A stretch of 64,000 nucleotides of DNA, from positions 277-64,276 of the forward strand of contig NZ_LMNL01000003.1 of NCBI RefSeq assembly GCF_001422985.1, written 5' to 3'. The translations under genes were made by a program, and so were the position numbers. This document shows positions 9,277 through 11,759 of this stretch, one piece after another; position 1 is the first letter of the stretch; each line of letters starts with the position of its first letter. This DNA is from Methylobacterium sp. Leaf117 (GTDB lineage: Bacteria > Pseudomonadota > Alphaproteobacteria > Rhizobiales > Beijerinckiaceae). Below the pieces are notes generated by a model. That model had not been told where the DNA came from. It was given only the letters and a program-made list of their open reading frames with translations, and made no database searches.

Positions 9277-10101
9277 TCACGGGCGCGCAGCCATCGCCGC
9301 AGCCGCCGCTTCCGAACCCGCGATCAGCGGGCCCAGGATCGCCCGGGCTCGGGCCGTGATGGCCGGGCCGGCAGCCGCGGGCGTTCCGGCGTCGAACGGC
9401 GGCGCCGGGGCGTATTCCGCCACGAGCTGGCTCGTGCGGGCCGCGTCCCCGCCAGCGAGGCGCGCGGAGAGCGCCAGGGCGAAGTCGAGGCCTGCCGAGA
9501 TCCCCGCCGCGGTGACACGGTTGCGGTCGAACACCACGCGCGCCTCCACCGGGATCGCCCCGAGGCGCGGCAGCACTTGGTCCCGTACGCACCAGTGCGA
9601 GGTGGCGCGGTAGCCCCGCAGCAGACCGGCGGCGCCGAGGATCAGCGAACCGGTGCACACGCTGGTGATCCAGCCGGCCCGCGCCCCGCGATCGCGCAGG
9701 AACGCCAGGGTGTCGGCGTCGCGCATCTGGCCGGGCGTGCCGTCGCCGCCCGGCACGAACAGCACGTCGAGGTCGCGCGGGCAGGTTTCGAAGCTCTCCT
9801 CGGCCACGAGCGCGAGCCCGGTATCCGAGGCGACGCGTCCGGCCGTGCGGGCCACCAGGTGGAGCCCGCCTCCGGCGATCCCGGCCAGGAGCGCCTGCGG
9901 CCCGACCAGATCGAGGGCGGTCATGCCGGGATAGAGCAGCATCGCGATGCGCAGCGGCCGTGCGGATGCGGGGACGGGTGCGTCCGGGGCAGACCCATCT
10001 CCGGCCTGGGCCATCCGGGCCGACGCAGCCGTCAGCGCCGCCGCGGTGCCGGCCAGCCCCGCCAGGGTGACCCGGCGGTTGGGACGGTTCGGCGGCGTCA
10101 C
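9277..10101 (-). CDS. Tat-exported DJ-1/PfpI family protein
   Basis: The start is a GTG at 10101 overlapping the stop of the upstream response regulator by four bases (GTGA), so the two are translationally coupled. The protein has 274 residues. An N-terminal twin-arginine stretch (PNRRVTLAGLAG) followed by an Ala-rich hydrophobic segment indicates Tat export. The mature part begins RIAMLLYPGMTALDLVGPQ, typical of the GATase1-like AraC-associated/isonitrile hydratase branch of DJ-1/PfpI. The nucleophile elbow cysteine is C149 in ITSVCTGSL, and FVPGGDG provides the usual glycine-rich loop. No DNA-binding domain follows. The enzymatic role is unknown; its position downstream of a two-component pair suggests it belongs to the same response. 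Confidence 0.85.
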   Translation of the reverse strand: MTPPNRPNRRVTLAGLAGTAAALTAASARMAQAGDGSAPDAPVPASARPLRIAMLLYPGMTALDLVGPQALLAGIAGGGLHLVARTAGRVASDTGLALVAEESFETCPRDLDVLFVPGGDGTPGQMRDADTLAFLRDRGARAGWITSVCTGSLILGAAGLLRGYRATSHWCVRDQVLPRLGAIPVEARVVFDRNRVTAAGISAGLDFALALSARLAGGDAARTSQLVAEYAPAPPFDAGTPAAAGPAITARARAILGPLIAGSEAAAAAMAARP

Positions 10102-10478
10102 GCCGCGTCCGGCCCGACCTCGAAGGACGCGATCGCCTTGATCAGGCTCACCGCCCGATAGGGCTTGGCGAAGAACACGCTGCCCTCGATCAGGCGGGGC
10201 GGCGTCTGCGAGAAACCCGTCGCGTAGATGACCGGCAGGCCGGGACGCAGCCGTCGCGCCGCCTCGGCGAGCTGCCACCCGTCCATCTGCCCGGGCAGCC
10301 GGATATCGGTGAACAGGATGTCGATCGCGGTCTCGGCCTCCAGGATGGCCATGGCGCTCTCGGCGGTGGTGGCCTGGACGACCGTGAACCCGAAATCTTC
10401 GAGATCGGCGGTAATGACTTCGAGCAGAAGCGCCTCATCCTCGACCATCAGGATTCTGGGTTTGGGCGAGCCGCTCAT
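10098..10478 (-). CDS. Single-domain response regulator
   Basis: This 126-residue CheY-like receiver has no output domain. The acidic pocket is in MVEDEALLL (E13/D14), the phosphoacceptor is D58 in LFTDIRLPG, and the conserved lysine is in FFAKPY. The YATGFS segment supplies the Thr switch residue. It sits 15 bp downstream of the ethylene-receptor-like kinase gene and overlaps the following DJ-1/PfpI gene by four bases. It is therefore the likely phosphorylation partner of that kinase, acting by protein-protein contact rather than by binding DNA. Confidence 0.93.
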   Translation of the reverse strand: MSGSPKPRILMVEDEALLLEVITADLEDFGFTVVQATTAESAMAILEAETAIDILFTDIRLPGQMDGWQLAEAARRLRPGLPVIYATGFSQTPPRLIEGSVFFAKPYRAVSLIKAIASFEVGPDAA

Positions 10479-10493: not shown

Positions 10494-11759
10494 TCAGGCA
10501 AAACCGAGGCGGGATACGCGGTCGGCTGGTGCCGTCTTTTCATCGGCAGGCACTGACGATAGCTGGGTTCCGTCGCGTGGCAAGTAGATCCACACCGAGG
10601 TTCCCTGGCCGGGACGGCTCACAATCTCGGCATGTCCATCGGACTGCTTGGCGAATCCGAAGACTTGGCTCAGGCCGAGCCCGGTGCCCTCGCCCACCGC
10701 CTTGGTGGTGAAGAACGGCTCGAAGACGCGGGTCAGGGTCTCCGGGCTCATGCCGGTGCCGCTGTCCTCCACCACGATGGCGACGTGATCGATCGCCGGC
10801 AGGTCGGCGATCCGCGCCGCTTCGGCGGCCGGGATGTTGCGGGTGTGGATCACGGCGCAGCCGCCGTCCGGCATGGCGTCGCGGGCATTCATCGCCAGGT
10901 TCAGCAGGGCGTTCTCGAGCTGGTTCGCATCGACGCAGACGGGCCAGGCCTGCGGCTCCAGGACCAGCTCGGGCTTCTCGACGGCGCCGAGGGACCCGCG
11001 CAGACGCTCTGTCAGGTCGTGGATCAACCCGTTCGGGTCGAGGCGGGCCGGCCGCAGGGGCTGGCGCCGCGCGAAGGCGAGCATCTTCTGGACGAGGGCC
11101 GCCGCGCGCTCCGCCCCCGTGAGGGCGCCGCGCAGGGGGCGATGCATGCCGCTCTCGGCCGGAAGGAAGCGCTCGATCTGGTCGAGATTGCTGATGACGA
11201 CGCCGAGCAGGTTGTTGAAATCATGGGCGACGCCTCCGGTCAGGGCGCCGATCGCCTCCATCTTCTGGCTCTGGCGCAGCATCTCCTCCGCCCGGTCGCG
11301 CTCGGCCGAGGCTTCGTGCAGGGCGGCGAGCGCCGCGTCGCGCTCCTGCACGCGGGCCAGCAGGACGGCGTTGGCCCTGCGCAACTGCTTGGGCGACGGC
11401 AGGGCCAGGGCCCTGCGCAGCAGCATCCACAGGAGGGCGGCCGTCACGATCGAGGCCACCGCCGCCTTGACCGCGGCCTCGGCGGCGTAATCCGGCACCC
11501 ACAGGGTCCAGATTGCCAACAGATGGGTGATGCCGCAGGCCAGGATGAAGAGCGCGAAGGCCCAGACCATCCATCCGAAGACGAGATCGCGCCGCCGGGT
11601 GACGAGGACGCCGAGGGCGACCGGAATGGTGAAGTAGGCCAGCGCGATGATCGCGTCGGAGACCATGTGGGTCCAGATCAGCTCCGGCCGCCACGACAGG
11701 CAGATCCCGTGGGGAGCCAGGCTGGTGCCGTCGAGGAAGCCGGTCAGGGTCTCGATCAT
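10494..11759 (-). CDS. Hybrid-less sensor histidine kinase with ethylene-binding-type membrane domain
   Basis: This 421-residue protein has three N-terminal membrane segments (about residues 33-53, 61-82, 95-116). They carry D35, Y42, I45, P46, I72, C75 and H79, which match with a constant offset of ten the residues D25, Y32, I35, P36, I62, C65 and H69 of Arabidopsis ETR1. C and H of that set bind the copper cofactor used for ethylene. A coiled linker (130-165) leads to a HisKA domain with H179 in GGVAHDFNNLL. The HATPase domain has an N-box NLAMNARDAMP, EDSGTGM and GTGLGLS. The protein is expected in the inner membrane, sensing ethylene or a similar ligand and phosphorylating the neighbouring receiver. 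The family resemblance is strong; ligand binding itself is inferred. Confidence 0.9.
   Translation of the reverse strand: MIETLTGFLDGTSLAPHGICLSWRPELIWTHMVSDAIIALAYFTIPVALGVLVTRRRDLVFGWMVWAFALFILACGITHLLAIWTLWVPDYAAEAAVKAAVASIVTAALLWMLLRRALALPSPKQLRRANAVLLARVQERDAALAALHEASAERDRAEEMLRQSQKMEAIGALTGGVAHDFNNLLGVVISNLDQIERFLPAESGMHRPLRGALTGAERAAALVQKMLAFARRQPLRPARLDPNGLIHDLTERLRGSLGAVEKPELVLEPQAWPVCVDANQLENALLNLAMNARDAMPDGGCAVIHTRNIPAAEAARIADLPAIDHVAIVVEDSGTGMSPETLTRVFEPFFTTKAVGEGTGLGLSQVFGFAKQSDGHAEIVSRPGQGTSVWIYLPRDGTQLSSVPADEKTAPADRVSRLGFA

Follow-up and report, generated by a model that had tools for sequence, protein, structure and literature searches.

One histidine kinase gene in the window, that is, in the whole stretch of 64,000 nucleotides that was analysed, raises the question of whether a bacterial receptor with a complete predicted ethylene site still reports ethylene, a question that can be tested. 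In bacteria, ethylene receptors are established for Synechocystis and Azospirillum, and many proteobacteria are predicted to have them (PMC11819568, PMC7700396); according to PMC11819568, few of these receptors have been tested so far. The idea of such a receptor is not new, and the interest of this locus lies in a variant of helix 3 rather than in the presence of a receptor. Among open-licence papers that contain both "Methylobacterium" and "ethylene receptor", no title dealt with a Methylobacterium ethylene receptor, which may nevertheless be listed in a survey or review, and Methylobacterium goes unmentioned in the main text of PMC11819568. The earlier note had assumed a plant-associated genus. 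The DNA was judged Methylobacterium-like because its closest relatives with a name are Methylobacterium sp. Leaf108, M. oxalidis, and Methylorubrum podarium; Methylobacterium has been described as a leaf-dwelling genus (PMC3395638).

The kinase gene and its sensor domain occupy the following positions:

10494..11759, minus strand: histidine kinase, 421 aa, ATG start (open reading frame and Pfam)

11400..11684, minus strand: ethylene-binding-type transmembrane domain, kinase residues 26-120 (Pfam ETR1_N)

The predicted protein consists of an ETR1-type N-terminal domain, a helical linker, and a CckA-like DHp/ATPase core. No PAS or GAF domain was found in it by Pfam, and the alignment shows a direct helical linker. 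Residues 26-120 match the Pfam family ETR1_N (PF25487) with 107.4 bits (cut-off 27), and this domain is the single match in the whole 5.32 Mb genome (E 1.1e-31), which excludes a chance resemblance to ETR1_N. Compared with solved structures, the kinase core is closest to kinase 5idj, while none of these structures matches the sensor domain by sequence up to E = 1. The phospho-acceptor was assigned by alignment to His179 in the H-box GGVAHDFNNL; HATPase_c scores 70.1 bits and HisKA is weak, under its cut-off (Pfam). The translation thus carries the motifs of an active kinase, namely a phospho-acceptor histidine and ATP-binding motifs. The earlier note had given the coordinates of this reading frame correctly and had listed seven key residues of the ETR1 site at a constant offset of ten; each of them (D35, Y42, I45, P46, I72, C75, and H79, including the copper ligands C75 and H79) was found at its position in the translation, and the offset holds against the ETR1 numbers as quoted there. 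By domain and site, as read from its translation, the protein is a genuine member of the bacterial ethylene-receptor family. According to PMC11819568, the fragment AzoEtr1(1-130) binds 14C-ethylene, and ethylene binding by the window protein is likely from its sequence, whereas unchanged signalling is less likely than binding.

The earlier note overlooked two changes in helix 3, a two-residue gap and the loss of the helix-3 proline:

11462..11463, minus strand: site of the 6 bp (two codons) absence in helix 3 (codon alignment, spacing)

11415..11417, minus strand: Arg115 codon, in place of the helix-3 proline (P110 of ETR1) (alignment)

The 6 bp gap is in frame and lies between A99 and A100, right after K98, which itself is kept; its placement within two GCG codons is arbitrary. 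In the codon alignment, each of the ten close relatives has these 6 bp and the window copy does not; the absence was read from one assembly of one strain, which leaves a small risk of an assembly error. Of 72 scored sequences, 71 have a spacing of +7 between the equivalents of K91 and S98, and the window copy has +5; a proline stands at +19 in 69 of the 72, the window copy has Arg, and two others also lack it. This scoring covered 72 of 84 distinct open reading frames, the 12 unscored ones including L131, L132, and L156 (from genome G032). L131 and L132 have strong domains missed by the pattern, and by eye their K-to-S spacing is 7, with the proline present in L131 and absent from L132. The length between the tryptophans flanking helix 3 is the standard 26 in L156 and L109 and 24 in the window copy; the helix-3 stretch of G032 is thus of normal length. 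The transmission elements of helix 3 (the K91-S98 spacing and P110), common to most family members, are therefore not found in the window copy. This change concerns signalling and leaves the assignment of the binding domain unaffected. An altered sensor also occurs in L140 (genome G464), where Gly stands in place of Cys75 and Arg in place of the helix-3 proline, so that binding and transmission positions are altered together.

The shortening is also visible in the distance from H79 to the phospho-histidine, which is 102 in 42 proteins (41 from the genus and L005), 88 in two, and 100 here, in a comparison restricted to CckA-like kinases. The phospho-histidine pattern was located in 61 proteins, 15 of which have other distances and represent other kinase types or extra domains. 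The values 88 and 102 differ by two heptads; L156, the eroded G032 protein, has 97. Neither spacing nor alignment revealed a linker insertion that would make up for the loss, the total distance still being 100 versus 102.

According to PMC6586836, helix 3 passes the signal in ETR1 models, and S98 and P110 seem to be needed for transmission; in plants as well, transmission of ethylene via helix 3 rests on models (PMC6586836). The authors of the AzoEtr1 study align K91 with K98, which is modelled as contacting the aspartate (PMC11819568). In another histidine kinase, changes of linker register left the light responses either inverted or unchanged (PMC11164954), which makes an altered output likely here, in a direction that is not predictable. 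Structure models from six sequences gave an unbroken helix at residues 91-118 for the window copy and a helix broken at residues 113-114 for the Leaf108 relative, both with low confidence (pLDDT 64.8 and 67.2, pTM 0.43 and 0.45), and this difference is only suggestive.

We consider it probable that the locus encodes an AzoEtr1-type two-component system with a bacterial ethylene receptor, in which the site is intact and the output is altered through helix 3. Two kinase chains would pair in the membrane, Cys75 and His79, positioned by Asp35, would hold Cu(I), and Cu(I) would bind ethylene. In the relatives, the signal would reach the phospho-histidine domain via helix 3 and the uninterrupted helical linker, and the kinase/phosphatase balance would then shift toward the adjacent single-domain receiver. 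The window species has an intact site but a helix 3 that lacks two residues and its proline, so binding has probably been kept and the output probably re-set, that is, locked, weakened, or inverted relative to the relatives. The residues, the gene order, the co-occurrence, and the deletion were observed directly; copper, ethylene, and the direction of the output are what we infer. More specifically, with the site untouched, the helix re-phased by two, and the proline kink gone, the ethylene output might be opposite to that of the sister species or absent, a proposal that we make only tentatively. An ordinary working receptor, in which the helix-3 change is tolerated and the response is as in the relatives, seems somewhat less plausible still. 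It would fit the intact site and purifying selection, the retention of the receiver and of the gene row, the sequences that lack the proline (two others of the 72, plus L132 by eye), and the finding that some kinases function after linker changes, even off their natural register (PMC11164954), but the deletion lies in the signal-passing helix, is uncompensated in the linker (100 versus 102), and occurs in no other scored sequence.

The earlier note had suggested that the system senses host ethylene. The complete site and the binding of ethylene by its relative AzoEtr1 favour this claim, yet it assumes transmission, and as stated it is unsupported, because the copy is uniquely shortened in helix 3 among the scored sequences.

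The kinase is accompanied by two downstream genes:

10098..10478, minus strand: single-domain response regulator (receiver), 126 aa, 15 bp after the kinase stop (Pfam Response_reg)

9277..10101, minus strand: DJ-1/PfpI family protein (Pfam DJ-1_PfpI; proposed GTG start)

The receiver has no output domain by Pfam, and it is presumed to be co-transcribed with the kinase. The proposed GTG start of the DJ-1 gene overlaps the receiver stop by 4 bp. The DJ-1/PfpI protein, encoded next to the receiver, has a twin-arginine-like N-terminus (NRRVTLAG); its gene is a candidate for an exported output. The order of permease, DJ-1, receiver, kinase, M48 protease, and nuclease-like gene is common to five other species (L171-L175); L176 has the kinase and receiver at the same site without DJ-1, and eight other species (L177-L183 and L185) have different neighbours. 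In sister species, the same genes stand at the same chromosomal site and encode a longer helix 3.

Within the genus, 45 of 111 genomes have an ETR1_N match, 44 of them above the cut-off, and 42 of the 111 carry the full seven-residue site. A receiver (E <= 1e-30) was found in all 42 full-site genomes and in five of the 69 others, where at most 39 candidates were scored per genome and absence of a receiver holds within those; it adjoins the kinase in 41 of the 42, the exception being G072. Fisher's test on this co-occurrence gives p 2e-25, which is not a true probability since the genomes are related. Judged by co-occurrence and adjacency, the kinase and the receiver belong together. All seven residues are present in 42 of 48 distinct genus reading frames and in 27 of 36 elsewhere; the six exceptions in the genus are the extra copies in G048, G050, and G051, a sub-cut-off match in G095, and the proteins of G030 and G032, the G030 protein being divergent and distant from its receiver. 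In G050 and G051, a second divergent copy (L154, L155) lacking the histidine ligand (AFLALCQ) is found beside an intact receptor in the genome.

Outside the genus, the domain was matched in 28 of 385 genomes of a class sample and in 42 of 297 genomes of an order sample (37 above the cut-off), both samples including the genome of the window and a few genus members; class-sample matches were in part retrieved as loci, and order-sample matches were taken as counts. Plasmid matches number 19 in 72,556 records, with alignments reaching query residue 91; seven are from Azospirillum, and others include isolates from lake water, activated sludge, an intertidal site, and root nodules. Matches from such non-plant sources indicate that plant association is only part of the picture, and they make the word "host" in the claim of the earlier note an inference. 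They also bear on the explanation that the ligand of the domain is copper or some other small molecule instead of ethylene, its likeness to ethylene receptors being a shared Cu(I) site. Besides these sources, this explanation might draw on the lack of an ACC deaminase match in the genome at E <= 0.001, but this absence says little on sensing; the retention of all seven ethylene-site positions, beyond the metal ligands, and the binding of ethylene by AzoEtr1, the closest tested relative, make this explanation improbable. Two plasmid loci were noticed as well: positions 2995-4462 of L163 (NZ_CP063447.1, plasmid p2 of Novosphingobium sp. ES2-1) encode an ethylene-domain kinase and an overlapping receiver near a type II Cas9 gene, and positions 1062-6270 of L162 (NZ_OW485604.1), a Rhodovastum atsumiense plasmid, encode an ethylene-domain PAS kinase with a transposase gene on each side.

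Conservation of the system within the genus is not uniform. The earlier note had held that loss of C75/H79 in closely related strains keeping the operon would speak against its reading. C and H are present in 45 of 48 distinct genus reading frames, including all those adjacent to a receiver, which agrees with that reading; against it, the retained pair of G032 (L156) has changes at five of the seven sites (to Gly, Cys, Val, Leu, and Val), its C and H being unchanged, and G054 and G091 have a receiver without the kinase. In the latter two genomes, the M48 gene is followed by the receiver at a distance of 188 and about 207 bases, respectively, the kinase is absent between them, and no convincing kinase remnants were found in these intervals. 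The receiver of G091 has seemingly lost its conserved lysine. The G054 receiver (L166, 4650-5030) is intact at the syntenic site lacking the sensor kinase, and another kinase may use it. G072 has a kinase interrupted near residue 270, the two parts of which lie at the ends of two contigs (L159, L184): the part with residues 1-277 meets stop codons 217 bases short of a contig end, and residues 264-395 precede the receiver at the start of the other contig, possibly reflecting an inserted element at an assembly break. The kinase homologues of G044 (L158, 1986-3172) and G038 (L181, 6961-8149) are in two frames near residues 310-326, either by frameshift or by sequencing error.

In comparison with ten relatives, dN/dS is well below 1 in both halves of the window kinase, and the dN of the sensor domain is lower than that of the kinase in every pair. 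In the tree, from which the broken or truncated kinases L094, L099, and L090 were left out, the window copy branches from within its clade (97/89), which makes the deletion private to this copy, and it has the longest end branch (0.24) of the 11-member clade. Compared with their counterparts in sister species, the window sensor, kinase, and receiver have evolved somewhat fast, and M48 and DJ-1 have not; the amino-acid permease is fast too, so the rate signal is not specific and the evidence for decay is mixed. Decay of the window system, with the receptor heading for loss and, whether or not it binds, no longer of importance to the cell, is possible but unlikely. The long end branch, the faster sensor, kinase, and receiver, and the losses and erosion in other species (G032, G054, and G091, with broken kinase frames in G072, G044, and G038) are what such a process would leave, but the frame is open here, the catalytic motifs are kept, dN/dS stays well below 1, and the fast permease deprives the rates of specificity.

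An ethylene receptor with an intact site and an altered output thus remains the preferred reading. A leaf-living genus has full-site copies in 42 of the 111 sampled genomes, and sister species differ in the length of helix 3. The protein is short, with no PAS or GAF domain in between, and its natural two-residue change in helix 3 makes a simple test pair with the relatives.

Among known systems, the kinase core and the receiver of the window score best or near best against CckA/PRK13557 (NCBIfam), but far under the curated cut-offs, and the receiver is a separate protein in the window. Plant ETR1 has the same seven binding residues, and its K91, S98, and P110 correspond by residue numbers to positions +0, +7, and +19 of the relatives; in contrast to the window kinase, where no GAF domain was found, it has a GAF domain after the transmembrane domain (PMC6586836), and it signals mainly via a serine/threonine kinase (PMC11819568, PMC7700396). 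SynEtr1 (Slr1212) of Synechocystis, likened here by description, is likewise a bacterial ethylene receptor with a phosphorelay to a response regulator (PMC11819568); it is a light receptor too, and its regulator turns on the transcription of a small RNA (PMC11819568), whereas the window receiver lacks an output domain. Plasmid p2 of Novosphingobium sp. ES2-1, typed as conjugative, encodes a kinase followed by an overlapping receiver, also with no PAS visible in the alignment; its helix 3 is normal, and its H79-to-phospho-His distance is 88, compared with 100 in the window and 102 in the relatives. AzoEtr1 of Azospirillum brasilense has 525 aa and a PAS domain, unlike the window kinase with 421 aa and none found, and the description of its locus in PMC11819568 names no DJ-1 neighbour; the Azospirillum Sp7 locus has another kinase core type (H-box AHEMSQP) and a helix 3 of standard length with the proline. 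Nevertheless, AzoEtr1/AzoRR-etr1 and the window pair share the same D35, C75, H79, and K98 numbering and a single-domain receiver directly downstream of the receptor kinase (PMC11819568).
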